This document shows, piece by piece, positions 2,284 through 34,188 of a stretch of DNA of 64,000 nucleotides; positions within the stretch are counted from its first letter, which is position 1; the number at the start of each line of letters is the position of its first letter. The DNA lies in NCBI GenBank assembly GCA_012862575.1, contig BLSF01000055.1, positions 127,698-191,697 of the forward strand, in the 5' to 3' direction. A program made the translations under genes and the position numbers. The notes below the pieces were generated by a model, which ran no database searches, was not told the origin of the DNA, and saw nothing but the letters and a program-made list of their open reading frames with translations. This DNA is from Parietichytrium sp. I65-24A. Taxonomy: Eukaryota; Sar; Bigyra; Thraustochytrida; Thraustochytriidae.

Positions 2284-5088
2284 ATGAGTGAGACAGGCCG
2301 GCAGCAAACGATGTCGCCGGGGATGAAAATGTTCTTGCAGGAGAACGGGATGACGGCTCTGATCAACATGTTCCGCCAGCTGGAAGAGGCCGAGAGACTC
2401 GTGGAGGCAGGCAAGCTCAAGCGCGATGTGTACGAGCGGCTGCGGGATAGCACGGTGGAGTCGATCAATGCGATGCAGCAAAAGGACGGGCCAAGCATGA
2501 AGAAGAAGGAGAAGAGTATGTTTTCCGAGATGCTCGCTTCGCTAAAGCCTGCGAAGAAGGGCCAGCCACAGGCGCATGCACAGGCACAGGCGCAGGCACC
2601 TTCCGCGGGGGATAAGGTACTGCTGGAGGATACGCTCTTCCGATACGTGAAGAACGGTCTGGGCTTCGGGTCGTGGAAGAAGAGGTACTGCAAGCTTTAT
2701 TCTCGCCACATCGCCGTGTACAAGCACAAGGGCGACAAAAACCCCAAAGAAACCATCATCCTCACGCCAGACCACTTTCTGCAAAAGTCCGGCGGACGAC
2801 AGAGCACCCGGAACATGGACGGGGTTATGGTGGATGATGACGCTGAGAGCGTGTCGACCGACGAGACGACACGCGGCAAGAAGGACATCGAATTTTCATT
2901 CATGCTTAGCGACCTGGAGACAAAGTACTGGTTTGGCTCCAAGCGTGAGACAGTTGTGGACACTTGGTTTCTCTTCATCGGCAAGGTTCTGGGCTCGATC
3001 CGAACGGACGAGGAATACTTTGACACCCCACAATTCATTGGCCAAGCCAGTCAGACTCCGGCGCAGATTCAAGCTGCGCTTGAGGAACGTAAAGCTGCGT
3101 ATTTGCAGTCTCAGAGGAAAAAGACGCTCGAGAGGTCCCGTAGAAAAAGTATTTTCGGCAAAACTAAGATAAAGCGTCTCACCGACGAAGAGTTGGCTGC
3201 AATTGAAAAGAAGTGGGAAGAAGAAGGCAATGAGCTCGCCCGGATCGAAATGACCCGCAAGCTGCTCGAGGACGAGCGCAAACATGTCAAGGCTCTTGAG
3301 GAGGAGCAGTCAAAGCGGGAAGAGGAGATGAGACGGCTGCGCGAACTCACAGAAGAATGGCGGTCTAAAGCCGAATCGAATCAGCGCAAATACGAGGACG
3401 CTGAACACAGAGCCGAAAAGGCGATTAACCATGAAAAGGAGCTCGAGTCGCAGCTCCTGCTCTTGCAACAAATGCGAGCCCAAAACATTGAGCGAGAGGA
3501 TGCAATTAAAGCTGAACAGGTCACCACACAGCAGCAGCTGGAGAACATGCAACAGCAGCGGCGGATGAGCCAGCACCCTGCTGCGCTGAAGCAGTATGAA
3601 CAGCAAATCGCTGCTTTGCAGGCAAAACTAGCTGCTCTACAGTCTGCGCTGGAGGTGGATTTGGATGGTCTCGACTGGGACGGTACTCTAGAAGATGCTG
3701 AGAATAAGATGAAGGCGTGTATTCCACGGCTCATGAGCGAAAATGTGAACGAGGCTCTCGACGCCCAAGCCGAGTTCGACCAGTGGGACAAGATCATCCG
3801 CAACCACGCTGATTACAAGAAACGCGAAGAGAGCAAGTGGAAGGACTGGGAGCGAGACAACGAGGGGCCAAACCTCCGGGCCTTGGAGGAGATGCGACAG
3901 CTCGTTCCTCGCGAAGTCTTGACTGGTGTGTCCGAATCTTTCCTCAAGCAGCGAGGTTTGAAACCATCTGCTGCCAAGAGAGTCATGTCCACCAAGATCT
4001 TACAATTCCTCTGGATGGACAAAGACGAGATTGCCAAAGTCCACATTGCTGACCTCAACTCGCGCTATGTCCCGCAAGGTCTGGACATCGTGGAGCTCCG
4101 AGCGGTGTACTGCTGCCTTCCACCAGAGTTCCAAAATGATCGCGACGGGTCAAAAAAGAACTGGCTCGACACTCTCCGAGGCAAGCTATTCGCCCTGACA
4201 GAAAAGGAGAAGAAAGGAGAGCTTACTCGGCCCGAGGAGCGTCATCCTGCGTACCGGTCTGCTGCGGATAACAAGGCTGCAGCCGCAGCTGCAGGGCCAC
4301 GCCCAGCGCTTGCAAAGAAACCGCAAGTCGGAAAGAAGATTGACACATCCAAGCTCAATGCTCTCTTCGCTGGCGGTGCTCCACCAGGGGCGAAGGGTGG
4401 TCCTCCAGGACCCCCTGGCGCAGGTGGACCTCCCCACCATGTGCTTGCTATGTTGCAAAAGGGGGCCGGCGCTTCCGAGGAAGCGCCAACAAGAAAGTCA
4501 ATCACCCGGTCGATCAGGAGCACGTTTTCCTCCGTGAAAAATCTTCTTGGCGGCGGTGGCAGCAGCAGTTCCAGCTCGCCTCCCGTCACAGAGCCAGAAC
4601 CAGATGTCCCTGACATGAGCGCGCCAGTCAAGGGCCGCAGGAGGGGGAAGAAGCCCCCTATGACTGAGGAACAGCAACTGCTCTCCAAGGGGGTCCGTAA
4701 CATGATGGACTCGGTGAAGGAAAATTATTCTGTTGATGTGGACGACTTTGACGAAAAGAATGCCCCGGCCTTCGACTTTGGCGGGGACTACTCCACCAAC
4801 AAGAAGCAGACCCTCAGCAAGCAGCGCGCTGGCGAGTTCTCCAAGGGTATTGAGGAAGGAATCGAGAATCTGTGCAAGGTGATCAAGGAAAAGGGCACCT
4901 TGGACCGAGCTGAAGGCGGCGTCGCTACCATGACGTTCGGCCAGCTCTTCGAAGAGTATGAAAGCATTAGCGATATGCTCGTTGGCCTCCTGATGCGTGC
5001 CAAGAAGCGGAAGCGTGTCAAGTACGTTGGGGACATGCTCTTTCAGGGTATCCACGACAATGTCAAGATTACATTGCTCAATGCATAA
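2284..5088 (+). CDS. PH - coiled coil - Costars domain protein 1
   Basis: A single-exon protein of 934 residues. The frame is open further upstream but has no earlier ATG, so the ATG at 2284 is the start. Residues about 109-245 read as a PH domain, with a basic first half (SWKKRYCKLY) and a closing helix (WFLFIGKVL). Residues about 260-460 form a long charged coiled coil. Residues 460-660 are helical and unclassified. A Gly/Pro-rich linker follows near 700-717. The last about 80 residues match the Costars family (ABRACL and the ABRA C-terminus) through FGQLFEEY, AKKRKRVKY and GDMLFQGIHDNV. Costars proteins regulate actin assembly and motility in Dictyostelium and animals, and a PH domain would add a membrane-lipid anchor. 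A shorter relative lies at 32920-34188. The domain calls are firm. The actin role is inferred from the family. Confidence 0.88.
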   Translation: MSETGRQQTMSPGMKMFLQENGMTALINMFRQLEEAERLVEAGKLKRDVYERLRDSTVESINAMQQKDGPSMKKKEKSMFSEMLASLKPAKKGQPQAHAQAQAQAPSAGDKVLLEDTLFRYVKNGLGFGSWKKRYCKLYSRHIAVYKHKGDKNPKETIILTPDHFLQKSGGRQSTRNMDGVMVDDDAESVSTDETTRGKKDIEFSFMLSDLETKYWFGSKRETVVDTWFLFIGKVLGSIRTDEEYFDTPQFIGQASQTPAQIQAALEERKAAYLQSQRKKTLERSRRKSIFGKTKIKRLTDEELAAIEKKWEEEGNELARIEMTRKLLEDERKHVKALEEEQSKREEEMRRLRELTEEWRSKAESNQRKYEDAEHRAEKAINHEKELESQLLLLQQMRAQNIEREDAIKAEQVTTQQQLENMQQQRRMSQHPAALKQYEQQIAALQAKLAALQSALEVDLDGLDWDGTLEDAENKMKACIPRLMSENVNEALDAQAEFDQWDKIIRNHADYKKREESKWKDWERDNEGPNLRALEEMRQLVPREVLTGVSESFLKQRGLKPSAAKRVMSTKILQFLWMDKDEIAKVHIADLNSRYVPQGLDIVELRAVYCCLPPEFQNDRDGSKKNWLDTLRGKLFALTEKEKKGELTRPEERHPAYRSAADNKAAAAAAGPRPALAKKPQVGKKIDTSKLNALFAGGAPPGAKGGPPGPPGAGGPPHHVLAMLQKGAGASEEAPTRKSITRSIRSTFSSVKNLLGGGGSSSSSSPPVTEPEPDVPDMSAPVKGRRRGKKPPMTEEQQLLSKGVRNMMDSVKENYSVDVDDFDEKNAPAFDFGGDYSTNKKQTLSKQRAGEFSKGIEEGIENLCKVIKEKGTLDRAEGGVATMTFGQLFEEYESISDMLVGLLMRAKKRKRVKYVGDMLFQGIHDNVKITLLNA

Positions 5089-5533
5089 CACCCGATGCGA
5101 CAGTGTGACCAATACTCGTCTCCTATTTCTGTGTCTATTGCTTGTTTTGGAGAATCGTGCTGCACTGCTCTGGAAGTTGTTGTACTTGCGCATCTGATCA
5201 TTGCGAGAGACCGCTTTGGACATGTCAGGGAGAGGGAGCAAAGGAAAGGAAAGGAAAGGAAAGGAAAGGAAAGTCGCCTACAGCAGTGGAGGATTGTCGC
5301 GATAATTTCTTCCCCGCGTTGCCCTCTAGTGACAGTGAATGAATGAATATACGTGTTGGTGTACGGAATTATCGAAACGTGTAGCCCGTGCTTACCACAT
5401 TTGTTTCCAAGAAAATTTTGCTTGTTGTTTTATCTTGTGCTTTCTCCGTCCTCAATCTGTTATTTTACAAGTGTTGCCAAATGTCATTGACACTCGGGCA
5501 GTCTGGTGCTCGCTGCAAGTTCAAAGTGATGGG
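5089..5533. other. Convergent 3' gap
   Basis: This holds the 3' ends of the PH-Costars gene and of the minus-strand orphan gene. It contains a (GGAAA)n repeat at 5241-5273. No gene is seen. Confidence 0.6.
5241..5273 (+). repeat. (GGAAA)n pentanucleotide repeat
   Basis: About six GGAAA units in the 3' gap, roughly 150 bases after the PH-Costars stop codon. Confidence 0.9.
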
Positions 5534-6661
5534 CTACAAAAAGTCCGGATCCTCCAGACCCTGGCTCCAGTTCAATAATGCATCAACATCTTCCATGGTT
5601 GGGGAGAACATGCTGTCCGTATTCGTTTGGGCATTACCTGCGATATTGTCATGTTCGTGGGTCCGCTTCTCCTCACCTCCCTCGGCCAGAGAGGTCAAAG
5701 AAGGTATGCTAAGGTGAGAGTTGCCGATTGCCGGAATCAGGACTTGCTGCTGTCTCCTGTTCGAGTCTGGGGGTGATCCGTAAGAGTGGTACGAATGCGA
5801 TTCAGCCTCAGGAAGTGCCCCAGGCACAAGCTGATCCAAGAAATTAAAGTTCATCGACTTTTGAAGGTACGCTTCAGCCTCCGCAACAGAAAACTTGGGA
5901 GCATCGCCCTCCTCTGGCAAGGCGCTATCTACCCCAGCGCTCCATCTCGACCCAGAGGTGTGTTCCACTGGCAGCCTCCTCTCCTCCTGCTCGGGCTCCT
6001 CCGATCCCACAACCACTCGGTTCGATGGCATGAAGGTGCTGAATAGGAGACTTGGACGGGTCGGGAGAATACTAGAAGAGGCTCGATTCGTTTGACCAAT
6101 CTCTGCCATTTGATTCTGCAAAGTGGTGAGAGAGTCATCGCTGGGGCTCCCCTGAAATCCGCAAAGTGAATTGTTGTCTTCTGTTCGGTGGTCTTGACGA
6201 CTCTCATACTGCTTCATAAAATCCGCTTTCTTCCGCTGCAACTGCTGCAGTTTTAGTGGACCAGCCTCGCGGCGCACTTGCACCATTTTGCGCTCATTCT
6301 CTCGTTCTTGTATCATTCTTGTTCGCTGCGGATCCAAGTCGAACTGCACGTTGTTTGCAGCTGTCTGCATTAAGGCGTGTTCCGCAAGGAACTGTTCCAA
6401 GACGTCCTGCTGCTGCTTCTCGCTCCCCTGCGAGCCTGCTGCCTGCAAGCGAAGCATTAATGCGCGAATCGCATCGCCAGACACATTCTCAAGCGTGCTC
6501 TTCGCTGTCGCAAAGGAATCAATGCTAGAGCTTGACCGCGCTGACAACCTGGACTCGCTCCGATCGTCCCCGCTCGCTCCGAAAGCTGCCTTGCGTGATC
6601 TCCTCCGACCGCCTCCCACGGCTTGCGCAAGCCGATACTCCTGCCACGGGCCGATGTACAT
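5534..6661 (-). CDS. Unrecognised 375-residue protein starting MYIGPWQEY
   Basis: A single-exon gene on the minus strand. The frame is open upstream of 6661, but the first true ATG gives MYIGPWQEYRLAQ. This looks like a conserved N-terminal signature rather than random sequence. Next come a basic patch (GGGRRRSRK) and a Ser-rich stretch. A helical, Gln/Arg-rich middle contains RMIQERENERKMVQVRREAG and can form a coiled coil. The C-terminal half is low complexity. The end is acidic (MEDVDALLNWSQGLEDPDFL), which could be a short docking helix. I do not recognise the family and assign no function. The gene shares a 1.4 kb divergent promoter region with the armadillo gene. Confidence 0.72.
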   Translation of the reverse strand: MYIGPWQEYRLAQAVGGGRRRSRKAAFGASGDDRSESRLSARSSSSIDSFATAKSTLENVSGDAIRALMLRLQAAGSQGSEKQQQDVLEQFLAEHALMQTAANNVQFDLDPQRTRMIQERENERKMVQVRREAGPLKLQQLQRKKADFMKQYESRQDHRTEDNNSLCGFQGSPSDDSLTTLQNQMAEIGQTNRASSSILPTRPSLLFSTFMPSNRVVVGSEEPEQEERRLPVEHTSGSRWSAGVDSALPEEGDAPKFSVAEAEAYLQKSMNFNFLDQLVPGALPEAESHSYHSYGSPPDSNRRQQQVLIPAIGNSHLSIPSLTSLAEGGEEKRTHEHDNIAGNAQTNTDSMFSPTMEDVDALLNWSQGLEDPDFL

Positions 6662-6888
6662 CCTCCCTCGATCAAGGTCTCGACCGCCGCCCCTCGCGCT
6701 CCACAAGCCAGGATAACTTGGGAGTCGACAGGACAACCTATGCCGCGCCTTCTACACTCGCAGCAGCCAACCTCGGCCACAGCTTTGCGAATGGGAGCGA
6801 AGAAAGCGATGGCCCTTTCTCCTAACTAATCTCAGAAATTGGCAATTCACGAATGCAGCTTGAGGAGCTAAGCTATTCATTCATAGCC

Positions 6889-6962
6889 GTGAGTGCTGTG
6901 AGAGCTGTGAGAGCTGTGAAAGCTGTGAGCACAGGACGGGCATGGGCATGGGCATGGGCATG
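6889..6962 (+). repeat. Two adjacent minisatellites (AGCTGTGAG and GGGCAT units)
   Basis: Four GAGAGCTGT-like units are followed directly by four GGGCAT units. They lie about 230 bases upstream of the minus-strand start at 6661. Confidence 0.8.
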
Positions 6963-7591
6963 TGCCAATTGTTCTTGAACACGTCCAACTAATCAGACCG
7001 GCTTATTCACAGGCACTCAGTCCCAAGGACACCTGCGCTCCTAACCACGTCCAGTCAATCGCGCAGCGCGAGGAGTCGCCTATTGGCTCACAGTTAAATT
7101 GTTACTCCCTTTCTGGGAGGGACTCTTTCTTGGGCTGCTATTCATGCATGGCTTGTGCGAGACAAGAGTGGAGGAATATTTGGCACTCACGGTCACCAAA
7201 AGAGCAAAGTTGGCCGGACTCAATCTGAGACTCTGCTTTTCTTCTTTCGACCAGCCACGCAGTACTTGCGAGACAGAGCCACTTTTCCTTATTTCCGTCA
7301 ATACCATTTCACTTTCGCTTTCACATTCGCTTTCACATTCACTTTCATTCACTGTCAGAACATTCATTCACTAACTCAGAGAGTCCAGTCCGTGAACGGA
7401 TCGAAATTGAGGCATTGCGGGGGCTCTTCTTATAAATCGCATAATGAAGTATTACCATGCTCCCCCGGAGTTTACCCAATATCCGTTCATCGCTTTCTCA
7501 GCCTGAGCTGAGCCTTAGCCGAGCGCATCATTGACAATGAATGCATGGATGGCGGTGTATACACATCCATGGGAGACGTCGGAGAGAGCTG

Positions 7592-7650
7592 CAAATAAAT
7601 AAATAAACAAATAAATAAATAAATAAATAAAGAAAGAAAGAAAGAAGGGA
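7592..7650 (+). repeat. AAAT then GAAA microsatellite
   Basis: A run of AAAT units turns into GAAA/GAAG units, about 430-490 bases before the armadillo ATG. Confidence 0.85.
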
Positions 7651-8082
7651 AAGAAAGAAGCAAGGCTGAAGAGGGAGGCGACAGGCGGTACATGTGCAAT
7701 ATGTTCAACATGTTGTAAAAGAGAAGAGAACAGGGCTGTGCTGTTGTGTATCCGGGAGGCAGAGATCTGTCTTCGCCAAGCCATTTTCCGAGGGACACCA
7801 CACTAACCTAGAGAAGGAAGAGACAACCAACTAACCAACTAACCAGCGAGCCAGCCAGCCAGCCTGCCTGCCTGCCTCTTTGCCAGACCCTCGCCGGACT
7901 GTCCAATCACAGCAACTTGGAAACGAGACTGTCGTGGTCTAACGATTGGCGATAGTTTTGACGAAGAAGACGTGTCGAGACGCGCGGGTGGTCGTGCTAG
8001 TCACGCGATAGATCTTGCCGGATAGAGACGCGGTGGGGAGAGGAGCTGTGACACGCTGCTGGCTGTGGAGCGTCGCGGGAGA

Positions 8083-10035
8083 ATGGCGGATCTAAGAGAT
8101 ATTTTCGCGGTGGAGGATGCCGAGCTAGATGGGCAGGAAAAGGTGAAGAAGAGCAAGAAAAACCAGCAAAAGCTGGCAATGGCACAGGGCACCATCGCAA
8201 GGTTGTCGAGGCCACCGAAGAAGAACTTCCGCGTGGAGGACCTAGATGTGTCCACGCTGAGGCCGCTGGTAGACTTGGCGTATTGGTCGACATTCTTGGA
8301 GGTTCGGCGCGACGCCGCTGCTGCCTTTGCAACCCTTGCGATGAATGAAATGAACCTTTCTGTCCTCTCGGAGGCAGGCGCTCTGGGAGCTGTGATCGCG
8401 CTGATAGGCATCAACAATGACATGAATGACTCGCAAATTCATCGGGACGCTGCAACGGCGCTGTCGTACCTCTTGACAATCGAGGACGTGAAGCGCAGAT
8501 TTCTCAAAGCGCCTGACGGCCTCCGGTCAATCTTTTACATTTGTAGGTCGCCTAGCATCGAGGTAAAGCGCGCTGCTGTCAAAGTGTTTGCCAACCTAGC
8601 CACTCTCCCTGATACGCAAGAGGCTCTCGTGGCAAATGGAGGAGTAAAATATTTGTTCGCACTGGCAACGTGCAACGACGAAAAGACCAAGCGCCGAGCT
8701 AGTGTGGTTTTGAAGAAGCTTGCAACCCACCCGAACAATCACGAGCGCATTTGCTCAGATGACAATGTGATTCGTAGTGCGATATCGCTGTTGCTAGAAT
8801 CCAACGACCTGACCATCAGAAGAGACATGATTAGCTTTGTGCTGGCCATCGCGTCGGACAATGAGAAGAAAAAAGTTCTCGTGGACCACGGAATCCTGAC
8901 GCCCCTCATGATGCACATGGACCCTGGGCACGCATCCTTGGAGACAATTGCTCTGGTGAGCCACTGTCTTTTAGCACTCTCCGGTTGCTCCGAGGTTCTT
9001 CCAGTGATGGTGGAGGAGGGCGTTGTGGAGACACTAAGCAAGGTTATCTTTCAAGAGTTGGCAGAGATCAGGACCTACCGAGCGATGCGTCGTGCTCATC
9101 TGGTGCGAATGCCCTCAGGCAGGGCGAGCGAGTCCAAAGAGGGGGAAGAGGGTCCAGAATCGGGACCGGGTACCAGTGGCGGCCATAGAAGCAGCAGGAT
9201 CCAGACCCAGATTGAGCTTGAGGAGGAGACGTTACGATATGGATTGTCCATTTTGCTGAACATTGCCGCACACAAGGGGCTGCGCGATGATCTCGTGGAG
9301 CGCGGAATCCCTTTGTACTTATACGAAGACGCCATTTTGGAGTCTCCAGACAAGAAGACACGACGAACGACTGCAAAAATTTTGGTCAACATTTGCAACA
9401 GCGAAGGCAAGTCAGCCGAGCGACACGAAAAGCTGATTGAGAGCGGCATATTGCATGCCGTTCGAGTGTTTCTCCGTTGCGGTGATTTTGTGCTGAAGAC
9501 ACAAGCAGTCAAGATCGCTGCATGTTTGGCTGTATCTAGCTGCGGAAAGAAGGAGTTAGCGCGCTCACCAGAAATGATGAAACTTGTGGTGTCCCTGTGC
9601 AACCCGCACGACGAAGAAGTAAACGAATGGGTGGCGAGAACTCTTGCAGAGATCTCGGATAACCCAGCCAACTATAACTCGATCATGACGGCGGGGGGCT
9701 TGTCTGCCCTAATATTCTTGATTTCGCCACGATCAAAGAGCAAAGTGGTTCGGGAAGAAGCTGTCCGCTGTCTCTCCAACATCACTACGAGCCGCGAGAT
9801 TCGAATGAAGGTAGTAAGCTCGGGTGGCCTTGGTTATTTGATCAGTATATCGAAGTCTGGCAGCGGCCTGGCAAAGATGTATGCCCTCGCGACATTGACA
9901 AACCTTGAGCATGATACAGCAGCTATTCGCATCCAAATGGTCTTCCGAGGATACTTGTCGCGAAAGGCTAACTCGCGAGCATCACACTACCGCGATGATG
10001 TCGAATCCAAGTCGAGTCGCGAGTGGAAGAAGTGA
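8083..10035 (+). CDS. Armadillo-repeat protein with C-terminal IQ motif
   Basis: A single-exon protein of 650 residues starting at the ATG at 8083 (MADLRDIFAVED). From about residue 60 onward it is built of repeated helical units typical of armadillo/HEAT folds. Signs are blocks such as RDAAAAFATLAMNE, AAVKVFANLATLPDT, RRASVVLKKLATHP, VREEAVRCLSNITT and MYALATLTNLE. A loop rich in Gly, Glu and Ser (near 350-375, with SGRASESKEGEEGPESG) interrupts the array. The C-terminus holds an IQ-like calmodulin or light-chain binding motif, IRIQMVFRGYLSRK. Armadillo proteins are scaffolds, so no specific partner can be named. The N-terminal basic stretch KVKKSKKNQQK could be a nuclear signal. No relative is seen in this window. 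Confidence 0.85.
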   Translation: MADLRDIFAVEDAELDGQEKVKKSKKNQQKLAMAQGTIARLSRPPKKNFRVEDLDVSTLRPLVDLAYWSTFLEVRRDAAAAFATLAMNEMNLSVLSEAGALGAVIALIGINNDMNDSQIHRDAATALSYLLTIEDVKRRFLKAPDGLRSIFYICRSPSIEVKRAAVKVFANLATLPDTQEALVANGGVKYLFALATCNDEKTKRRASVVLKKLATHPNNHERICSDDNVIRSAISLLLESNDLTIRRDMISFVLAIASDNEKKKVLVDHGILTPLMMHMDPGHASLETIALVSHCLLALSGCSEVLPVMVEEGVVETLSKVIFQELAEIRTYRAMRRAHLVRMPSGRASESKEGEEGPESGPGTSGGHRSSRIQTQIELEEETLRYGLSILLNIAAHKGLRDDLVERGIPLYLYEDAILESPDKKTRRTTAKILVNICNSEGKSAERHEKLIESGILHAVRVFLRCGDFVLKTQAVKIAACLAVSSCGKKELARSPEMMKLVVSLCNPHDEEVNEWVARTLAEISDNPANYNSIMTAGGLSALIFLISPRSKSKVVREEAVRCLSNITTSREIRMKVVSSGGLGYLISISKSGSGLAKMYALATLTNLEHDTAAIRIQMVFRGYLSRKANSRASHYRDDVESKSSREWKK

Positions 10036-10366
10036 GAATCCGCGAACATTAGGATCTTGAAAAAAAAAGTAAAATAGATTGTTTCAAGCCGCTTGATTCG
10101 TTTCCAATGTGTGTACTCTTAATTTGTTCCCATGCAAGTTGCGATTGAGCTAATTGTGGTCTGCAATCCGGCCCGCAAAGGTCCAAAATAACAGGATGGG
10201 ATTGCAACCTTTGTGCTTTTCCAATTTTTGGAGACCGGCCTAAGCAAAGCAGTCGGAGGAAGCTTTTCCCGTTTTGAACGTCGTATTTTCTTCTTTTTTG
10301 ACAGTGAGTTCGACATAAGTGCCAAAGGAGGGAAAAGGACGCGTCAAAGTTGTCAATGCTATTAGT
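10036..10366. other. Convergent 3' gap
   Basis: 331 bases between the armadillo stop and the stop of the KDEL protein. An A-rich run lies just after the armadillo stop. No gene is seen. Confidence 0.6.
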
Positions 10367-11848
10367 TTACAACTCGTCCTTGCGCTCATCCTCATCCTCT
10401 TCATCATCATCCTCTTTAACAATTTTGGTGGCTGGGTAGTCGTGGCTGATCTGTGAAACTACTTCAGAATCGCGGCGAATCTCGGAGTAGATTCCGCTGT
10501 TCCTTCTGAAACGGCCAGCATACTTTTTGAAGATCGGCCCACTAACACGCTCATGGCAGTTGATGCATTTATTCCTGTTCGTATACTTTGCATTCATATT
10601 CCACAAGCAAGTACCGATGCAAGTGCTTCTAGTATTGATGACACTCCCAGTCCAGATCACTGCGCACTCAGTAGTGAAACCGAGGTTGATGAAACAACCA
10701 ACCGTGAGGTCCGCGCTCAGAAAGCTGTACGCTGCACATTTGCGCACAGGGGTAGTAAGATCTTGACGCTCGATGTACACTGCCAAGTCTTGCAAAGAGC
10801 TGCAGTATCCGCACTCGCCAGTATGAGTGACGTATGCACCCGCCTTCTTTGCAGCGGCTTCTGACTCGAAAGTCTTGAGGTCGTACTCCTTGTTGAGGTC
10901 GTCCTTGAATACCACGGCGCATACCGAGCCCCTCTGCACAATGTATTCTGCGTTTGCATCGCTAAAGGGGTCCACTTTAGGCAACGGCAATGGGTTCGCA
11001 AGAACTTTGGTCCGCAGGTCCGCAATGACCTCATGCGAGTACTCAGGTTGCTCCCAGTTCTTGGCAGTTTGGCGGATCTCGTAATTCAAATCTGGGAGCT
11101 TTTCAACCAGTTTGTGCGCAGAATTGTCCATGTCCAAGTGGCGCCCAGCGTACTTGGCAAAAAGAGGCGCGGAGACTTCAGCGTCGCACTCCTTGAAGCA
11201 GTCTCCGACGACTTGGGCGTTGTAGCACCTTGGAGTGCAGGCTTTGAGACTGTTCCAGGACCTCTTCTGGAACAGATCTGCGCAAGGTTCACTGAAACCT
11301 GCGTTGACGAAGCACGATGTAGCATGGCTAGCCAAAGTTACCCCGCTCAGGGCGCAGTAAAGGTAGTCGAAACGTTTAACGCCCCTGTCTCCGTCGTGAT
11401 AGATAGTAGCAAAAGCATTAAAGTTCTCAATCGAAGAGCACACTCCACACTCGCCATTGTGATTAATGACAACGTTGTCCGACTCCTTGAAGTCAGCTGC
11501 ACGTACGGTCTTGAGCTCGTATTCGTAGCGAGATGGTTCCGGAAATTCCGCAACGCAGAGAAAGTCTTCCTCCGAGCGGGCGACCTCCACCTTGGTCTTG
11601 GCAAGGTCCCACTCTTCGTCGTAAGGGTTCTGCGGGAGTGGTCTCCTCACGTTCGTCTCGATCACGAGGGCCATATGGGCACTGTGGTACGTTTTCAGGG
11701 ACCCAAGTGCCTCGACATTCTCCGCCGTGTTATTCCTTGGCACATTTTTGTGGTAATGGTAGTTCACGGCCGCTGTCAGCCCGAGAAACACATACCACAG
11801 CGCCAACACCGTTACCACCGTCCACACCAGCGTCGAAACCCCCGTCAT
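10367..11848 (-). CDS. ER type II membrane protein with duplicated Cys-rich domain and C-terminal KDEL
   Basis: A single-exon protein of 493 residues starting at the ATG whose complement is 11846-11848. One hydrophobic segment (about residues 6-28, LVWTVVTVLALWYVFLGLTA) near the N-terminus should act as a signal anchor with the bulk in the ER lumen. Two related Cys-rich domains follow, near residues 130-250 and 345-460. Both carry the pattern H-x-GECGxCSS, then a CF(V/I)N-x-GF-x-x-x-CA block and later Cys pairs. Both also end in a (G)PxFxKYAGR-like stretch. An acidic tail leads to the last four residues KDEL, the classic ER retrieval signal. The Cys pattern recalls uncharacterised proteins of algae and protists. 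Disulfide-rich luminal function is inference, and the substrate is unknown. Confidence 0.85.
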   Translation of the reverse strand: MTGVSTLVWTVVTVLALWYVFLGLTAAVNYHYHKNVPRNNTAENVEALGSLKTYHSAHMALVIETNVRRPLPQNPYDEEWDLAKTKVEVARSEEDFLCVAEFPEPSRYEYELKTVRAADFKESDNVVINHNGECGVCSSIENFNAFATIYHDGDRGVKRFDYLYCALSGVTLASHATSCFVNAGFSEPCADLFQKRSWNSLKACTPRCYNAQVVGDCFKECDAEVSAPLFAKYAGRHLDMDNSAHKLVEKLPDLNYEIRQTAKNWEQPEYSHEVIADLRTKVLANPLPLPKVDPFSDANAEYIVQRGSVCAVVFKDDLNKEYDLKTFESEAAAKKAGAYVTHTGECGYCSSLQDLAVYIERQDLTTPVRKCAAYSFLSADLTVGCFINLGFTTECAVIWTGSVINTRSTCIGTCLWNMNAKYTNRNKCINCHERVSGPIFKKYAGRFRRNSGIYSEIRRDSEVVSQISHDYPATKIVKEDDDEEDEDERKDEL

Positions 11849-20051: not shown

Positions 20052-20087
<36 letters not shown>

Positions 20088-20090
20088 GTC
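20050..20090 (+). repeat. (TCAA)n tetranucleotide repeat, copy 2
   Basis: TTGATC followed by about eight TCAA units and closed by TCAGTCTTGATC. It has the same unit and flank as copy 1, 3.4 kb upstream. Confidence 0.9.
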
Positions 20091-20780: not shown

Positions 20781-20793
20781 TGTAAGGTGTGGG

Positions 20794-20816
20794 GAGAGAG
20801 AGAGAGAGAGAGAGAG
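20794..20816 (+). repeat. (GA)n tract upstream of the DUF885 gene
   Basis: About eleven GA units on the coding strand, about 560-580 bases before the DUF885 ATG. Confidence 0.85.
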
Positions 20817-24674: not shown

Positions 24675-25259
24675 GGCGCATGGCGTTCATGTATTGCACC
24701 TCTTTTCCTTTCCTATAGCGCTTCTCAGCGAAGACGCTGTTGACATCATTCGCAGAAACAAGTGCATTTGTTCCCTATCAAATTTGTCTTTGCCCACGGA
24801 GTGCCAATTCTATAAGACCCACTCTTTTCATCAATCTGCACTCTTCCTACTTCCTTTCTTTTCTTTTCTTTTCTTTTTTCAAATTTAAAAAACGGATGAC
24901 GCCGAGGACCACTCTGCTTTGTCACGGAAAGCGAGATTGAAGTCCAAGTCCTCTTTGATTGGAGTCATACCGCCACAATACTTTGGTCAATTGACAGAGA
25001 ATACAAACCATCAATACCCCGAAATCTCGTTACGTTTACGATCTTTTTCAAACTACAGGCACTGCCTCGAATCAGGTAACTTGGAGACAAATAGCGGATC
25101 AAAAAAAGACTGTCCACCCTAGAAGCAGGTACAAATCATCTCTCCGGGAGTTTTTTGTCTCACTTTCCTTTGTGTCCGAGACGCGAGTCGTGAGAGCTCA
25201 GTAACCGTGCTCAACAAGGCTTTCACGCCTTGGCTCTATCCCGTCAGATCAGAAGCGTC
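24675..25259. other. Convergent 3' gap
   Basis: 585 bases between the GlcG-like stop and the transporter stop. A TTTTC repeat lies near 24855-24880. No gene is seen. Confidence 0.6.
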
Positions 25260-26909
25260 TTACAAGGTGTGGTTACTCGCGACGCAAAGCAGCTCCTCCT
25301 CACGCTTTGCGCCAGCCACGGAGCTCACAGTCCCCGCCACCATGGCGACTACTCCAAAGACGAACATGAACGCCGGCACAAAAAAGTCCCCAGTCTTGCG
25401 TATTCTACCTATTAGGCTGGGAACGTACTGCGGGTGATCGCTTCTCCAAGCGTCAAAGCTTCGATGCCAAAGGCCTTTGAAGGAGAAGACCTTGAAATAG
25501 CACATAGCTGAACAGTTTCCGTACGAGGTGAGTCAAGCGAACATCAAAAGAGATCGACGGAAACAGCCACTTACACGGCAAGATATACGCCAAGACACTC
25601 GCACCGAGCGCGCCAGTTACCTCGATGACAAGCCCCAGGTCAGTTACGAGGATGCCGACGATCACTGACGCCAGCCAAAGAGCAAACGTCAAGCCATAGT
25701 GCCAGGCATTACTCATTCGCTTTGGCCCCACGAGCTCTGGCGAGTAGCCTTTGGCCATGGCAAAGATGGAATGCCGCGCGACAAAGTTTTCCATCGGAAA
25801 GGTAAACACCTACGTGCATTCCAAGGGAATTAGGATTGAGTGTCGAAGCAACTTCCAAAGCCGTTGTTATTACAACTTACCATCGTAAGAGCGAGCAGCA
25901 ATCTCGCAAAGTTCATCGCACGGTCATCACACGTAAAATTCTTCAAAATGTTCGCCTTGGTGGTATTGTAAAAGTTCAAGTAGCCTCCCAAAGCCAAGAC
26001 AATCGACATCACCATTGCGCTCCACACCGAGCCCTTGTTGACAGTCCTCCAGTTTGACACGGTGGGCTCCTTCAGCGTATTGAACACGATGAAGGAGGAG
26101 TGCTGGCAAACATAGGCAAAAGATATGGCACCCAGTCCGGCAAAGACAGCGCGATTGCCGAACGTTACAGATCGATCGATTTCTCCTTCCTGCATCGCAT
26201 CGGCTCCAGCTGGGCCACGAATGATGACAAATACCACAATCAGAGCATCTGCGCACACACTGACAATCGAGCTCCACGACAAGAGCGCGAGATCGCGCAA
26301 GAGATTGAGGGGCAGGATTACCGCCACCGCAAACACAACTATCACCCAGGTCCTGTCCACCTCAACACCGAGCAAGTGCAAAATGACAACCGGCACGGTG
26401 TCCGCAACAATTAAAAGGTACGCGCACATGGCGCCAAAGGCGAACACCAGCATGAACAGCGACACGACCACAAAACCAACTTTTCCGAAACACTCTTCGC
26501 ACAAGCTCTCGTAGCTGCGCTTTTTCAGCTTGACGCCACACTCTATGATCATATTCACGCTCACGTATGTCAAGTACGCGACTAGCAAGAGAAGAATCAC
26601 GCCCATGCCAAGGCCACACTCCTGGACGGCGAACGCCAGGCCAATGATCCCGGCTCCCACGATACTATTCACAAAATTGAATGCCGCTCCGAGCATCCCA
26701 GAGTTGCCCGGCACGACCTGCTCCTCTTCGTCTTCGCCGCCCCGCATTGAGATCGAGTCGAACCCCACGCTTCCTTCATTCGTCCGTTCGTCGCTCGTCG
26801 CGCGAACCGACCTAAACTCGCCAGCACCAGCACCAGCACCAGCGGGAGCTGCATCTTCCAACCCCAGGTCGTTCAGCTGCACGTCCGTCATGCTCACCTT
26901 CGCGGTCAT
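25260..26909 (-). CDS. Amino acid/auxin permease family transporter (AVT6/SLC38-like), 3 exons
   Basis: Exons on the minus strand are 26909-25881, 25809-25575 and 25507-25260, encoding 503 residues. The introns (71 and 67 bases) both begin with GTAAGT, and joining restores one frame (LLALTM to VFTFPMENF, AYILP to SMCYFKVF). The N-terminal about 65 residues are hydrophilic, with GAGAGAGE and an acidic stretch. The first membrane segment is the hallmark FNFVNSIVGAGIIGLAFA of the family. Roughly eleven hydrophobic segments follow. These carriers move neutral amino acids, often by H+ or Na+ symport, at vacuolar or plasma membranes. Direction, substrate and membrane cannot be told from sequence. 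The start is the ATG at 26909 (MTAKVSMTDVQ). Confidence 0.92.
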
Positions 26910-27530
26910 GCCCGACGACGCCCCTCAAACTCCAAAACCTGACCACCCTCCACGAGCACTCTTGCCCGACACTCCACCTGCTCGCCGCCGCAGCAGAGTG
27001 AGCAAGTTACTCCCCGCGGAATTGGCACGTCGCTATCACGTCGCTATCACGTCGCTATCGGTCGATCCAGCGCCTGGCTCGATATGCGCTTTTTAAAAGC
27101 TCCCGACTGTGTCGCAAACGGTGTGAACGAACGATCCTTGGCATGCAAAAGACTTTCGATCATCGATGTGAAGGTTCATTTTGGAAAGAGTGGAAAATGA
27201 GATGATGATGAGTATGGGTTATGAAACACTTAGTGTCCTTGGTGGTGGCGTTTTTTAGTGGGTATGCGTGAAAGTGTGCTTCTGGGAGACAATTGTGGTT
27301 TGGTTGACGTGCTCGCCAAGTCGAAAACGATGTGGTCTTTGATGCTGCACGTTCGCTTAGCGGCTCGATGTTTGGAGAGTGGATGAGAGTGGTCGAGAAA
27401 GCTGGGCGTTGCTTTTTGTTGCTGTTATTGTTGTTGGTGGTGCTGCTGATGGAGAAAGTGAAGGAGGTAAATGAGTTAGTCAAAGGTGAATGAGGTAGAT
27501 AAGTTACATAGTTTATTAACAGATTGGAAT
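26910..27530. other. Intergenic region
   Basis: 621 bases between the transporter 5' end and the 3' end of the TPR gene. It contains a short TTGTTG run near 27410-27440. No gene is seen. Confidence 0.6.
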
Positions 27531-30191
27531 CTACAACCTCTTGGAGACAAGCTCGAGCTCCTCGTCTGTGAGGCTACGAATTTGATAATCGGGTCCGAGG
27601 CAGCACGTTCCGCTAAGAATACCGGTGTCTGTGAATTGAAGGCCGAGATTGCCACGCTCGAGGAACTCTCGAGCAGATCGTTTGCCTAAAAGATGCAAAG
27701 AAAAGTCGCGGCCGAGGCAGAGCCGCAAGAGTTGCTTCTTTTCTTTGGGAGCTTCTGTCAGCACTAGTCCAACAAGTGTCGGCAAAATATCGAGCGAGCT
27801 GGAGATTACAATGGGCTCAGAACCGAGCGTCGCTCTTTTGCGCAATCGGCTGAATGGAATTCGAAGAAGCTCACGACCACTAACGCAAACAATGTTGGCA
27901 GTCCTGTCCTCCAGGTTGGACTCAAGCACAATGGCATCCTGCCAGACGCTTTCTTCGTTAAGAACCTGGACTTTCTGGCCACTACATATTTCTGACCCGG
28001 TGAACCTTTTTGCAAATAGGCCCTGGCACACGAGATGCGCAACTGACTTGTTGCTCGCGTCTCGTCCCAGAAGAATAGTCAGGACAGAGCCATTGTCGCC
28101 GGAGTGGAGCTCTTGCAGGAGAAAAGTGGTCATTGTAGATTCGCTCGTGCATGCTACAATAAACTGCCGGTCGTCATTTGGCTTGACAACAGAAGAAAAA
28201 GTCTCTTGTGATACCTGTTGCCCGCCGCTGGCACGAGTCGCCAAGTCCCCAAAGGTAATCAGGTCGAATTTTCCAGCTTGGAGCAGGTGTTTGAAGACTG
28301 TGCAGTCAGCGTCTGACTTGGATGATAAAATATTATTCAACGTGCGCTCAGGGCAGTCCCCGGATTCGACATAGTGTGCCAATGAGATCGCGAAGCCTGC
28401 CAGATTCTCCGGCAACTCAACTGCCTGGTCCGTTTGCATGATGATTGCAATCTTTGTGAAGGCTGGAGGAGGGAGCTTTTTGCCGGCGCCCTGCATGGTT
28501 TCCGGCCAGCTGGATTCTCTCCCGTACTCATACGCAAGGGTCGGCTTCTGGCGCGGAAAAGAAACCTCTCCGGCTTTTTGCAAGAGAAGCCGACAGGTTC
28601 GGAGGCTTTTCACAATCTCCTTGCGCAACGCACGAACTTGCTTGAGAGACTCTTCGTCATCCCCCATAAAGTCGTCCTTGAGCGCCTGTGCAAAATTAAC
28701 AATTGGCAGACCCACAAATTGCTCGTGCACACCAACTGAGCCGAGAAACTTGGAAATGAGGACAGCACAAGCTGATCTAGCTCGTTCTAAATCCTCTATC
28801 GCTGCTGTGTAATGCCCAAGTTGTTTTCGAGCTTCGGCGCGATAAAAGAGTGCTTTGGGGTTCTCCGAGCCCGTGCGAGACTGCACAAACAGAGCTCGAG
28901 TACATGATTCGACAGCGGCCATGGTGTCCTGTCCCCTCTCAATGTGACAAGCTGATTCACTTAATAGACACGAGACATTCAGCATCTCCAGCTCTTCGTC
29001 GCCTGGGAAACCAGCCTTGGCGAGAGCTCCGAGGCAAGTTGCAAACTGGATGGCTGCAGAGAAATAAAAGCCCTCGAGCCGAAGTCGATCGCCTTGCGCT
29101 TTGTGTTTCCGTACAAACGAAACGAACTTTGGCTTGTCTACTAAGGCTTCCATGGAGAGTCCTCGGTCAAGCTCAAGCAGTGCCAACTCGTTGACTCCCT
29201 TTGACTGTCGCGACTGAACGTCCGCCACTATGCGATCACGTAGCATGGAAATTTGCTTTCCCTTGAACTGGCCTTCAACTTGCGAGAGGTGTAACTCCGC
29301 AAGGAGAGGACCACCCATCTCAAGAAATGCGCCAGCGCGTAAGACCCATGCCTTGGTTACTTTGCGATCGAGAAGGAGCAACTCACGAAATACGTCGGCA
29401 GCGCCAACCCAGTCTTGCATGTCTAATTTCGCTTTGCCCAAGGACATAAGAATATCCTTTTCCGACTCTGCAAGCATTCCACCGAGCGAGTTATTTACGG
29501 CGGCATGCTGGCGCTTATCGCTTTCGTGGCTGTGACCATGTCCGTGATCATGCGAATGCCCACAGCTTGCGTGCTCGTGACTGTGGCCATGTCCGTGATG
29601 GTGGCCATGGTCGTGCGCGTGGCTGTGGCCATGTCCTTGTTGGCAGTCCCCGTGCCCATCCGGCGCCGCGCAAGATGTCGTTGCGGTGGCACTTTCCTCT
29701 TTTTCTTCAGACCGGAGTTGTGCACCCAATTGACGAGCAGCAAGCAGTGCCTCGGAAAGGTGGCGCACAACCTCCTCCGGACTGCTAGTTTCCGCTGCTC
29801 GTTCTCTCGCTTTAACGCACGCATCCAACCCGTTCTGTACCAGCACAGCCTTCTCCAGCTTCTCTCGTTTCTTTTGTGCTTCGGCATCGGCATTCGTCAA
29901 ACCGATTGAGGAGTTTGTGCCCCCAGACCTTTCCAAGTCCCGTTCCTGTGCATCATTCGTACTGTCCGAGACCTTTCCAGCTCCAGCTCCAGCATTCTCT
30001 TTCGCCCTCTGCTTCTTTGCCTTGAGGGCCGCCACTCTTGCAGCGCGATCTGCTTTGGCGGCTAGTTTGCCGGCTTCCTGCCGAGCATTCCGTTCTCGTC
30101 TGCGCAGTTCGACATTTGCATCGTCCTCCGTTTCCTCCAGTTCCAGCGCGTCATAGTCCAGTCCCGCCCAATACGACGCCGGTTTCAGCAT
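27531..30191 (-). CDS. TPR-like protein with histidine-rich metal-binding-type insert
   Basis: A single-exon protein of 886 residues from the ATG at 30191 (MLKPASYWAGLDYDALELEE). The N-terminus is acidic, then strongly basic and Ala-rich (AGKLAAKADRAARVAALKAKKQRAKE), like a coiled or nucleolar-type segment. Residues about 180-225 are an extreme His/Gly/Asp insert made of HGHSH, HDHGHHHGH and HSHDHGHGHSH units, as in Zn or Ni chaperones. From about 230 to 500 helical pairs such as KAWVLRAGAFLEMGGPLLAE and KALFYRAEARKQLGHYTAAIEDLERA read as TPR repeats. The C-terminal third is a folded but unrecognised domain. Metal binding is inferred from composition. Protein-protein binding through TPRs is family knowledge. 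The 5' flank carries a 150-bp tandem repeat. Confidence 0.8.
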   Translation of the reverse strand: MLKPASYWAGLDYDALELEETEDDANVELRRRERNARQEAGKLAAKADRAARVAALKAKKQRAKENAGAGAGKVSDSTNDAQERDLERSGGTNSSIGLTNADAEAQKKREKLEKAVLVQNGLDACVKARERAAETSSPEEVVRHLSEALLAARQLGAQLRSEEKEESATATTSCAAPDGHGDCQQGHGHSHAHDHGHHHGHGHSHEHASCGHSHDHGHGHSHESDKRQHAAVNNSLGGMLAESEKDILMSLGKAKLDMQDWVGAADVFRELLLLDRKVTKAWVLRAGAFLEMGGPLLAELHLSQVEGQFKGKQISMLRDRIVADVQSRQSKGVNELALLELDRGLSMEALVDKPKFVSFVRKHKAQGDRLRLEGFYFSAAIQFATCLGALAKAGFPGDEELEMLNVSCLLSESACHIERGQDTMAAVESCTRALFVQSRTGSENPKALFYRAEARKQLGHYTAAIEDLERARSACAVLISKFLGSVGVHEQFVGLPIVNFAQALKDDFMGDDEESLKQVRALRKEIVKSLRTCRLLLQKAGEVSFPRQKPTLAYEYGRESSWPETMQGAGKKLPPPAFTKIAIIMQTDQAVELPENLAGFAISLAHYVESGDCPERTLNNILSSKSDADCTVFKHLLQAGKFDLITFGDLATRASGGQQVSQETFSSVVKPNDDRQFIVACTSESTMTTFLLQELHSGDNGSVLTILLGRDASNKSVAHLVCQGLFAKRFTGSEICSGQKVQVLNEESVWQDAIVLESNLEDRTANIVCVSGRELLRIPFSRLRKRATLGSEPIVISSSLDILPTLVGLVLTEAPKEKKQLLRLCLGRDFSLHLLGKRSAREFLERGNLGLQFTDTGILSGTCCLGPDYQIRSLTDEELELVSKRL

Positions 30192-30229
30192 TTTCGCGCG
30201 TCCACCACGTTCGACAATCAACAACACCT

Positions 30230-30577
30230 TTTTCTTCGTCTGAATTTCGTTTCCAATGGAAACTCAAGTTGCGACCAAACACCGCTCCGGGCTAAACAAT
30301 CGAAGGCGTTTGCACTTTGACTTATCGGCCTTCAACTTGCACAATTTGTCCTGGCTGGCACTGCTTTTTGCTTTTTGCTTTTTCTTCGTCTGAATTAATT
30401 TCGTTTCCAATGGAAATTCAAGTTACGACCAAACACCGCTCCGGGCTAAACAATCGAAGGCGTTTTCACTTTGACTTATCGGCCTTCAACTTGCACAATT
30501 TGTCTTGGCTGGCACTGCTTTTTGCTTTTTCTTCGTCAGAATTTCGTTTCCAATGGAAATTCAAGTTGCGACCAAAC
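30230..30577 (+). repeat. About 150-bp tandem repeat, two full copies plus a partial third
   Basis: Units start near 30232, 30382 and 30530. Each begins CTTTTTCTTCGTC-GAATT and runs through TTTCCAATGGAAA, CAAACACCGCTCCGGGC, GACTTATCGGCCTTC and TGGCTGGCACTGC. The copies are nearly identical, differing by a few substitutions and a four-base TTAA-type insertion in copy 2. The third copy breaks off after about 48 bases. They begin about 40 bases upstream of the TPR gene ATG at 30191, so they sit in its leader or promoter. The high identity implies a recent duplication. Confidence 0.9.
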
Positions 30578-31606
30578 TAAACTATTTGATGGCCTCAATT
30601 GGAGTGACATTCAATTTCCCAAATTCCAATAGCTCTCTTCGCCAGAACATGGACCACCGCGCACCTTTACTTACACCTTTACACCTTTACAGTTGCTTTG
30701 CGTTTCTTCCCTCGAACGTTCCGCCACACGGAGCGCTCGCCGGGGACAGCCTTCTCTTTCAAGCAACGCAGCGAGGACACTCGCTCGCGAATTACACAGT
30801 ACGCGCACGTCAAAGTGTCCTCGCAGACGGTTGGCGTGGTAGGGAACTCTTCGTTGCCGGGCAATCCTGGGATGCGAGTGCGGGCGTACCGGACTTGGGG
30901 CTGCTGGTGGTTAGATACGCGACCAGGTTCGCGTTTTGCAACGGTCAAATTCTCTTCTGACTGAGTGACTGACTGAAAGTGAGTTGATTGATTGATTGAT
31001 TGATTGACTTTGATTGACTGTGACTGAGAAAATTTTTTCAGCTTCTGGAGACGGCTCACTTTTTATCGACGACTTTTGTACAGTACTTTAAATTTTGTTG
31101 GTTCGTCGCTCTCTTTTGTTGATAATGAGCTCGCAGCTCGAAGCTCGCACGAACACACAAAAACGCACTCGCACAGATCTGTGGTTCAAGATGGGATCAG
31201 CATCTTTGTGCTTTAGGGTTCGATACTTGCGCGTGTTTCCAGCAGTTGTTGAGCGTGAGCTTCTCGTTCTTCTTCTTTCGCTGCCGAGCCTTGCGAATCC
31301 TGATGCTGGGAGAAATGTGTTCGTTCGATGTCTTCGTGAGACGGGACCAGTACGGTGCATGCGGCTTTGCCATTGCTATTGCGAAGTGGCCTTCCGAGCC
31401 ACGACAGTACGGTCGCCACCGGATAGTTGGATAGATGGATAATGGATAATGGATAGAGAACTTGAGCTGCGAGCGTTATCACGATTCATGACTTCAAGTG
31501 CCATTAAAATGTACCGGTACTAATACACCACTGCCATGTATCTCTCTCTCTCTCTCTCTACCTATTTATCTCTATCCGTTCGTTCCATTCGTTGCCTGAG
31601 GCAACC

Positions 31607-31630
31607 CTCTCTCTCTCTCTCTCTCTCTCT
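31607..31630 (+). repeat. (CT)n tract in the SF-assemblin-like leader
   Basis: Twelve CT units about 230 bases before the ATG, with a similar tract at 31541-31559. Here the pyrimidines are on the coding strand, opposite to most other leaders in this window. Confidence 0.85.
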
Positions 31631-31855
31631 TTTCTCTGTGTGTGTCTCTTCTCCTCTTGCGTTGGCGGGAGGCAATCGGAGCTCGAGAGGAGAACGAAGG
31701 CAGACTTTTTTGGCGAGCGTCTTGCGATCGGCGTCCCTCACTGCCTTGCAGGTAGCGCGAGGAGAAGGCCAACGCAGGTCTCGTTTGCACGGAGCAGAGA
31801 AGGTTGCAGTTCATTTGGAGTTCGTTTGCCTTGAGGAGGTCTGGCGCGGGAGAGA

Positions 31856-32704
31856 ATGGAGGAGTGCAAAGACCGAGACTTTGAGCAGCCAGAGACATCC
31901 AAGATGATCTCGGCGTCGTGCAGGAAGCTCCCAAGATGGCTTGCGCTGGAAGAGATGGAGCGCGATCGCGAGCGTGTATCTGTGAATAAGGACCGCGTCA
32001 AGTCCATCACGCAAAAGCTGTCCAAGCTGCAGCAAGGGCTCGAGGTCGATAAAAACAGGAGCAAGCTGGCCTTCGAGAAGAGGCTCAAGGAGCTGGAGGC
32101 CAAGATCGGTGAAGTGTCCGGCGAGCAAGACCAGCGTCTTGAGGAAGCTGATCAGCAGATCGAAAACCTTATGGAGGCGCTCGGCCAGGAGCGCCTCGCT
32201 CGTGAGCTTTTGGATGAGCGGAAGACTAAAGAGGGCGAGTTGTTGATGAAGAGCATCAATCTGCAGCTAGAAGAGTTAAAGTTGGGATTCGTCAAGACTC
32301 AAAGCAACCACACTGAGCAAATTGAGCGACTGCAAGCTCAGATGGAGGCTGACAAGAAGCTTCGGGAGGAGGCGGAGCAAAAGTTCGGAGTTCAGCTTGG
32401 AGACCAGGTTGCCAAATTGACGGAGGAGGTAGCTTTGACAAGAAGACAGAACGCAGAGCTCTTGGAGCGCCTGAGCGCATTGGAGTTGCAAAACACGCAA
32501 AAGACTTCACAATTGGAGGCAGAGAAAAAGGCTCGCACCGAGCTGGAGGAACACGTTGTAGATATGCTCGAAGACTTGTGCTCCAAACTTCGCGGAGAAA
32601 TCGTCAAAGAGCGAAATGACCGTGAAGGTATGGAGGAGACGTTGCTCAAACTCATCGAAGAGACATGTTCGAGGGTTGAGGGAGGCCTCGTAAGCGCCAA
32701 CTAG
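31856..32704 (+). CDS. SF-assemblin / beta-giardin family coiled-coil protein
   Basis: A single-exon protein of 282 residues, the usual size for the family. After a short non-helical head (about 40 residues, with CRKLPRWLALEEME) nearly the whole chain is an uninterrupted heptad coiled coil. Blocks such as SITQKLSKLQQGLE, RLKELEAKIGEVSGEQDQRL and ERLARELLDERKTKEGELLM fit. The C-terminus ERNDREGMEETLLKLIEETC resembles the SFA C-terminal segment. SF-assemblins form striated fibres of flagellar roots in algae and fibres that guide daughter-cell assembly in apicomplexans. The assignment rests on length, head-plus-rod layout and heptad character without an alignment, so another coiled-coil family is possible. 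If correct, the organism has basal-body roots or a derived division fibre. Confidence 0.72.
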   Translation: MEECKDRDFEQPETSKMISASCRKLPRWLALEEMERDRERVSVNKDRVKSITQKLSKLQQGLEVDKNRSKLAFEKRLKELEAKIGEVSGEQDQRLEEADQQIENLMEALGQERLARELLDERKTKEGELLMKSINLQLEELKLGFVKTQSNHTEQIERLQAQMEADKKLREEAEQKFGVQLGDQVAKLTEEVALTRRQNAELLERLSALELQNTQKTSQLEAEKKARTELEEHVVDMLEDLCSKLRGEIVKERNDREGMEETLLKLIEETCSRVEGGLVSAN

Positions 32705-32919
32705 TGCACTTGGCACCACCCCGAACATGCCAGGTTCAGGCCGTTATTTGTTCAGCCCGCCATCATCTTTTGGAAGACGGGAAAAAGCTGAAAACCAAAA
32801 TTGTATTTCAAAACTGCATCTTCTTGTTGCCCTCTGGTATTCTCTTTTCGCGCATCTTGTAAAGATCTCGTATGTTCATTGATTTATATTATGTATACGT
32901 ACTCTCTCTATCTCTATGT

Positions 32920-34188
32920 TCATGGTCCACCTCTTTCTATGGTGACGATCACATGATCATGACGCCCTTGGAAAAGCATGTCGCCTTCGTAGTGGATGTG
33001 CTTGCGTTTCTTGGCCCGCATCATGATCCCCACAAGTGAATCTCTGTTCAAAAGGCAAGGTCGACAAAGGTAAGCTTGGATTTCCCACTTCATGCAGCAC
33101 AATTCAAATACCGGGCACAGCGGCATCAACCCCTCGAGGTCAGTAACTTACGAAATTTCTTGATAAGCAATGAAAAGCTGGCCAAAAGTGACCTCAACCT
33201 TGCCATCCGGGGAAGGTTTTCCGAGTTCTCGAGCAACGCCAAGAAATTTGTCGATTTCCTTGTCGACCCAGGCCTGGGCCATTTTGGCTCGCTCGGCAGT
33301 TTTCGACCCTTCCTTAGGGCGCCCATATCCTTCTTCGCCCACGCGCGGCTGTGAAGACGACTGTGCGCTTCCCGAAAATGGATTTTCTGCTTGCTTGTCC
33401 TGGTGCTCCCCAACTTTACTGTTCCATTGCTGAACTCTGCTCTGTATGCCTTGAACGCCGCCGGCCATGCGCAAACTGGCGCGCTTGTGTTCCTGTCTTT
33501 GCTTGGCCTGGATTAGTAGCTCTGCGTCCTCACGCTCTTTCTGGCGGCGCTGCTCCTGCAAACGCCGCAGCTTGTCTTGCTGCTCTTTGTTCTTTCTTTC
33601 AGTCTCTTCCCGGACGCGCAGGGCTTCTTTGCGCTCGGTCTCGGCCTTCTTGGTCGCTTCCAACTTTTTCGCGAGCTCTTCTTGGGAGAGAAGCATTTTG
33701 TAAGCTCTAGACTCGGCATCTTTGCGTAGCTGGGTTCCGATGGTCTGCAGCTTGAGCATTTCGTCGCACAGCGCGGTGACCTGTTCGAGGCGCAACAGCG
33801 CCTCTGACTTTTGCTGCGTCTTCTGCGGCTCATCAAGTTCGGGGCGTTTCGCATTTTCCTCGGGCGCATTCTGCTTCTTCTTTGTGCCAAGTTCGCGCAA
33901 ACAGATCGCAATACTCTGAAGCCAGCCCTCCTTCTGGCTCTTCGTGTCCACTGCCAGGAACAGTGTCTCCACCAGATCCGAAACGATGAAAGCATTGGCT
34001 TTGCTGCTGCTGTCTCCCACATAGTGCTCCGAAGTCAGCTCAAACACGTCCGTGCTCTTCCCAAACTCAACTTTAATCACCGCGTCCGTGAGCACAACCT
34101 TCGCCTTTTCCCATTCTCCATCATGATCGAGCCGAACCCACGCGCTGCCTTCCTTCACCGCCCCGTTCGGACTCGCTGACGCAGTCAT
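32920..34188 (-). CDS. PH - coiled coil - Costars domain protein 2 (2 exons)
   Basis: Exons 34188-33152 and 33043-32920 on the minus strand encode 386 residues. The 108-base intron starts GTAAGT and ends AACAG. Joining gives QEISDSLVGIMMRAKKRK, which lines up with ISDMLVGLLMRAKKRK of the protein at 2284-5088. The ATG at 34188 (MTASASPNGAV) is the first in frame. Residues about 12-105 read as a PH domain ending in a helix (KEGWLQSIAICLREL). A charged coiled coil runs from about 120 to 240. A linker leads to the C-terminal Costars domain (FGQLFIAY, GDMLFQGRHDHV). It lacks the large central region and Gly/Pro linker of the first protein. The role is probably at the membrane-actin interface, inferred from the domains. 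The intron cuts the Costars domain, while the larger paralogue has none. Confidence 0.88.

Follow-up and report, generated by a model that had tools for sequence, protein, structure and literature searches.

Two genes encoding PH and Costars domains

The window analyzed here, a stretch of 64,000 nucleotides (nt) of contig BLSF01000055.1 from the thraustochytrid Parietichytrium sp. I65-24A, contains two genes, named A and B, whose predicted proteins carry a PH domain, a module of the membrane-docking type, in their N-terminal part and a Costars domain, an actin-regulating module familiar mainly from muscle proteins, at their C-terminus. An earlier reading of the sequence alone (the original prediction) had described both products as PH-coiled coil-Costars proteins, one with a large extra central region and the other with an intron inside the Costars domain. 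The features of the two genes, in positions of the window, are as follows.

2284..5088, + strand: gene A, 934 amino acids (aa), a single exon with an uninterrupted frame
2611..3069, + strand: PH domain of A, approximately residues 110-262, containing a long insertion
3229..3576, + strand: charged stretch of A free of proline and glycine, residues 316-431, with heptad periodicity in part
3547..4278, + strand: central all-helical domain of A, common to three other proteins of the genome
4849..5079, + strand: Costars domain of A, residues 856-932 (PF14705, E 4.5e-24, 84.8 bits)
32920..34188, - strand: gene B, 386 aa after splicing, with PH domain, charged stretch, STARS-like block and Costars domain
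33871..34155, - strand: PH domain of B, approximately residues 12-106, divergent and acidic
33463..33735, - strand: charged stretch of B free of proline and glycine, residues 152-242, a probable helix with no heptad signal
33271..33450, - strand: STARS-like block of B, residues 247-306, directly before the Costars domain and also present in gene C (see below)
33316..33330, - strand: GYGRP motif of B, residues 287-291, which a gapless count places on residues 279-283 of rat Ms1
32938..33270, - strand: Costars domain of B, residues 307-381, split by an intron (E 7.1e-26, 90.6 bits)
33044..33151, - strand: predicted GT..AG intron of B, 108 nt, within the Costars domain

The order of elements in A is N-terminal extension, PH domain, coiled coil, novel helical domain, proline-rich linker and Costars domain. 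Both C-termini score over the curated Pfam cut-off for Costars (PF14705, 24 bits), as the original prediction had expected, and the intron that it placed within the Costars domain of B is supported as a predicted one. The PH profile (PF00169, cut-off 25.1 bits) gave a match under its cut-off in A (residues 123-160, E 2.8e-4, 21.8 bits) and no reported match in B. The PH domain of A scores 43.6 bits against a profile built from the PH domains of the paralogues C and D described below, and that of B shows homology to the same two domains in the paralogue comparison. Furthermore, the predicted structure of the N-terminal domain of B contains the seven strands and C-terminal helix of the PH fold and matches the PH domains of Akt and TAPP1. 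Paralogue homology together with this model indicates that the N-terminal domain of B is a PH fold. As to the coiled coil of the original prediction, the heptad signal of A is partial and its match to a keratin coiled coil is weak (E 0.079), and the charged stretch of B lacks such a signal.

A family of PH-Costars proteins

A survey with PF14705 of the assembly to which the window belongs (42.5 Mb in 172 contigs, its counts being lower bounds) gave at least eight matches, corresponding to at least seven Costars genes. Besides A and B these are:

Contig C46: gene C, 590 aa, with one predicted intron of 355 nt; PH (E 1.8e-11, 44.9 bits) and Costars (E 1e-27, 96.5 bits)
Contig C9: gene D, 1047 aa, a single frame; PH (E 1.3e-13, 51.8 bits) and Costars (E 5.2e-19, 68.6 bits)
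Contig C60, L014:2782-5697, - strand: gene E, 972 aa; Costars lies close to the N-terminus, and a CCDC53/WASH-type motif is also present (E 4.3e-7)
Contig C45: gene F, 82 aa of open frame, ABRACL-like
Contig C64, L013 7415-8224, - strand: gene G, 257 aa, with a partial Costars match (27.7 bits) and a LIM domain

A PH domain precedes the Costars domain in four of the seven Costars genes found, A to D. All four proteins exceed the cut-off of PF14705, and that of PF00169 is exceeded by C and D only. Thus, the two-gene class of the original prediction is real and occurs four times in the genome, as PH-(helix)-Costars proteins, although B and C hold more than these two domains. Heptad signals in the charged stretches were found in A and C only (uncorrected). 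The possibility that A and B are a tandem-duplication pair was rejected, because the closest relative of B is C, on another contig, and not A. Viral contigs contained no relative of the Costars domain, and prokaryote genomes none of the C-terminus of B; these collections are non-eukaryotic and say little about distribution.

Gene E also carries poly-proline/glycine sequence, and a separate PH gene (L010) ends about 3.6 kb upstream of it on the same strand. A PH-Costars fusion at this locus was rejected, since the PH gene upstream ends in a stop codon of its own and the frame of E starts close to its Costars domain. The Costars-LIM protein G deserves attention because STARS associates with the LIM-containing ABLIM proteins in animals (PMC3520124).

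A STARS-like block in front of the Costars domain of B and C

B and C share 54% identity across a 135-aa alignment (153 bits), in which about 60 residues precede the Costars domain. For the 70 aa before the Costars domain, the B-C alignment scored 117, a value that compares with a maximum of 53 among 1000 shuffles. The five other pairs among A to D gave no signal, with between 172 and 455 of the 1000 shuffles reaching the observed score. The Costars domain of rat Ms1/STARS corresponds to ABD2 (residues 294-375, helix 1 starting from R302) and is preceded by ABD1 (193-295), the stronger actin binder; an AT-hook with a conserved GRP core begins at residue 279 (PMC4682817). According to the same report, DNA binding requires the AT-hook plus ABD2, a construct from residue 281 still shifts DNA, and one from residue 287 behaves like ABD2 alone. 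Actin binding by STARS needs residues 234-279 (PMC7922284, PMC3520124).

The Costars alignment places residue 310 of B on R302 of rat Ms1, and a gapless count back from there puts GYGRP (287-291) on residues 279-283. By the same count, STARS 234-279 falls on residues 242-287 of B, mostly within the stretch that is common to C. The shared block, together with the GRP motif of B, makes B and C look, at the level of sequence, like a PH domain joined to a STARS-type C-terminus. Animal ABRA presumably has a very similar stretch at the position of the block; we treat this unaligned resemblance as a lead only.

The type of the Costars domain was assessed with rat ABRA (2krh) and human ABRACL (2l2o), whose letters were taken from printed alignments. 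BLAST bit scores were higher to ABRA than to ABRACL for all five domains of A to E, and F scores higher with ABRACL. The Costars domain of A matches rat ABRA (2krh) at E 8.5e-12. Identity to rat ABRA is 45-52% in A, B, C and E, and 35% in D. In a small Costars tree, the grouping of F with ABRACL is well supported (95); the other nodes have values of 37-74, so that an ABRA-type grouping is poorly supported.

Proposed function and alternative explanations

We propose that A to D act in the cytoplasm as adaptors between the actin cytoskeleton and either membranes or partners close to membranes, a proposal to which we give about an even chance. The N-terminal PH domain would serve for docking: C, D and perhaps A would attach to phosphoinositides, B more likely to a protein. 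The long charged helical stretch would serve as a spacer and perhaps as a dimeriser, and the C-terminal Costars domain would contact F-actin. B and C, in which a STARS-type block comes before the Costars domain, are therefore predicted to bind F-actin more strongly; A and D, with the Costars domain alone, may act mainly via other actin regulators. Such a role would be played at actin-rich membranes, for instance those of the ectoplasmic network, by which labyrinthulomycetes, a group of stramenopiles, extend their plasma membrane and which contains an actin cytoskeleton.

Phosphoinositide-binding PH domains form a class with a basic segment of the K/R-x-R type between strands 1 and 2. The coupling of membrane lipids to actin suggested by the original prediction is a plausible one in the case of C and D: their PH domains have a basic pI (9.8 and 10.1) and, in the PH alignment, KKK and RRR, respectively, at this segment. 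It appears weaker for A, which is neutral (pI 7.0) and retains KKR, and doubtful for B, because its PH domain is acidic (pI 4.8) and EKA replaces the basic segment.

It is possible, if on the unlikely side, that the Costars domain acts in the manner of ABRACL, recruiting or tuning cofilin rather than filaments, so that cofilin would be controlled at PH-bound sites. ABRACL interacts with cofilin and binds F-actin weakly in vitro (PMC7922284), cofilin/ADF domains are present in the genome, and A and D give no signal of the upstream block. However, the Costars domains of A to E all resemble rat ABRA more than human ABRACL in score, and B and C possess the longer STARS-like block. The poor binding of F-actin by ABRACL alone also means that direct actin binding by the Costars domains of A and D should not be taken for granted. 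Rather improbable is the view that the PH domains are protein-binding modules and the proteins cytoskeletal scaffolds with no membrane link. The acidity of the B domain and the neutral, insertion-bearing domain of A fit this view, as do the structural matches of the B domain to protein-binding PH-like domains, including Exo84 with RalA and the Homer3 EVH1 domain; the strongly basic PH domains of C and D do not, and the PDB matches of the PH profile include phosphoinositide-binding PH domains.

That B is instead a nuclear, DNA-binding relative of STARS, whose GRP would act as an AT-hook alongside the winged-helix Costars domain, seems very unlikely to us. Its GYGRP does lie at the gapless equivalent of the GRP-core AT-hook that, with ABD2, is needed for DNA binding by Ms1 (PMC4682817), but only one of the four proteins has the motif at that place, the GRP of D sitting inside its Costars domain, and the PH domain and charged N-terminal part of B favor a cytoplasmic role. 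We consider it extremely improbable that the architecture is an artefact of merged neighboring genes. Although a PH gene does lie near Costars gene E, and B and C each rely on a predicted intron, A and D are single uninterrupted frames, B passes from PH into Costars within one exon, and the order PH-then-Costars recurs at four loci.

Several observations weigh against the adaptor proposal as a whole. The charged stretches of B and D have no heptad signal, the PH domain of B lacks the basic segment, C has no GRP motif at the place of the AT-hook, and the STARS-like block was assigned by spacing and motif, not by sequence alignment with ABRA. ABRACL alone binds F-actin poorly (PMC7922284), and neither Costars nor PH proteins are among the candidate network proteins listed in PMC12221091. 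That list left out proteins with high-scoring homologues outside the labyrinthulomycetes, so PH-Costars proteins may have been excluded from it.

In its widest form, the adaptor proposal would make A to D labyrinthulomycete PH-STARS adaptors that tie phosphoinositide membranes to F-actin and help to build the ectoplasmic network, with a STARS-type C-terminus, including the motif at the AT-hook position, that predates animals and, outside them, is joined to a membrane-docking domain. We put this forward tentatively and regard it as unlikely.

In the animal STARS/MRTF pathway, RPEL proteins sense G-actin. One frame of 505 aa in the genome (C49:51172-51369) contains one RPEL motif that passes the Pfam cut-off and another that falls short of it, so absence of RPEL cannot be used as an argument against a STARS-like SRF/MRTF pathway.

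The central domain of A and other observations in the genome

The large extra central region noted in A proved to be a separate helical domain. About 215 residues long, it occurs in four otherwise unlike proteins of the genome, with 39-45% identity (E 2.1e-28 to 8.8e-55), and matches no Pfam family; its predicted structure is all-helical (pLDDT 84.6). The viral contigs searched, a non-eukaryotic collection that says little about distribution, held no relative of it. One of the four carriers has a SAM-like domain and proline-rich LFAG-type repeats. The three carriers other than A are:

L021:2583-3278, + strand
L022:3902-4603, - strand
L023:2881-3549, - strand

A reverse-strand frame of 736 codons (L030, contig C58) fuses a PH domain to a MAP-kinase-like protein kinase, the kinase having been read by eye.

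The mitochondrial contig (C141, L026-L029) measures 39.3 kb with 28% G+C. In the 23 frames examined, which were those on the reverse strand with 170 codons or more and a complete sequence, some of them duplicate copies, TTA is absent after the first ATG in 18, confined to the last 20 codons in four and internal in one; TTG occurs in all 23. The near-absence of TTA beside common TTG is what would be expected if TTA were a stop codon in these genes. A change of UUA from leucine to stop has been reported for labyrinthulean mitochondria and for organelles of some other lineages (PMC12574857). On codon use, then, the organism is probably a labyrinthulomycete. A nad7-like frame and one other frame are each present twice on this contig, and cox1 appears as two overlapping matches, which may reflect duplications or assembly redundancy.

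Polyunsaturated fatty acid (PUFA) synthase is known from thraustochytrids; a search of the genome with TIGR02813 gave no match over the cut-off, and this marker thus lends no support to a labyrinthulomycete assignment. Three frames of 1965, 5583 and 4180 aa (L015 and L016, on contigs C68 and C66, and C40:226094-226624) match parts of the omega-3 PfaA model and are possibly modular polyketide synthases and type I fatty acid synthase.

Comparison with known systems

The PH and Costars domains are both already known; the novelty lies in their being combined, in the four occurrences of this combination and in the presence of the STARS-like block in a probable stramenopile. The original prediction knew of no described PH-Costars class, and our search, which covered papers, mostly those outside subscription journals, likewise found no such protein; the architecture may nevertheless already be recorded in a protein database. 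According to PMC12221091, only untested candidates have been published as builders of the ectoplasmic network, and the PH-Costars family adds concrete ones that can be tested. The occurrence in a probable stramenopile of Costars proteins with several domains (386-1047 aa), of which two have a STARS-like block, points to an old STARS C-terminus that became part of membrane adaptors.

Anillin resembles these proteins in combining a PH domain with actin-directed regions, and its PH domain (2y7b) matches at E 2.6e-5 when the PH domains alone are compared; to our knowledge, it has no Costars domain. ABRACL and Dictyostelium Costars share the winged-helix Costars domain, and F is their likely counterpart in this genome. 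Unlike A to D, however, they are only about 81 residues long and contain the Costars domain alone (PMC4682817). ABRA/STARS/Ms1, like A to D, carries the Costars domain (ABD2) at the C-terminus. The conserved block just before this domain in B and C may correspond to that of STARS, and in B the GRP lies at the AT-hook place. On the other hand, only the C-terminal domain of Ms1 is folded, the rest being flexible (PMC4682817), so Ms1 has no PH domain, whereas in the probable stramenopile studied here a PH domain and a long charged stretch precede the Costars domain.
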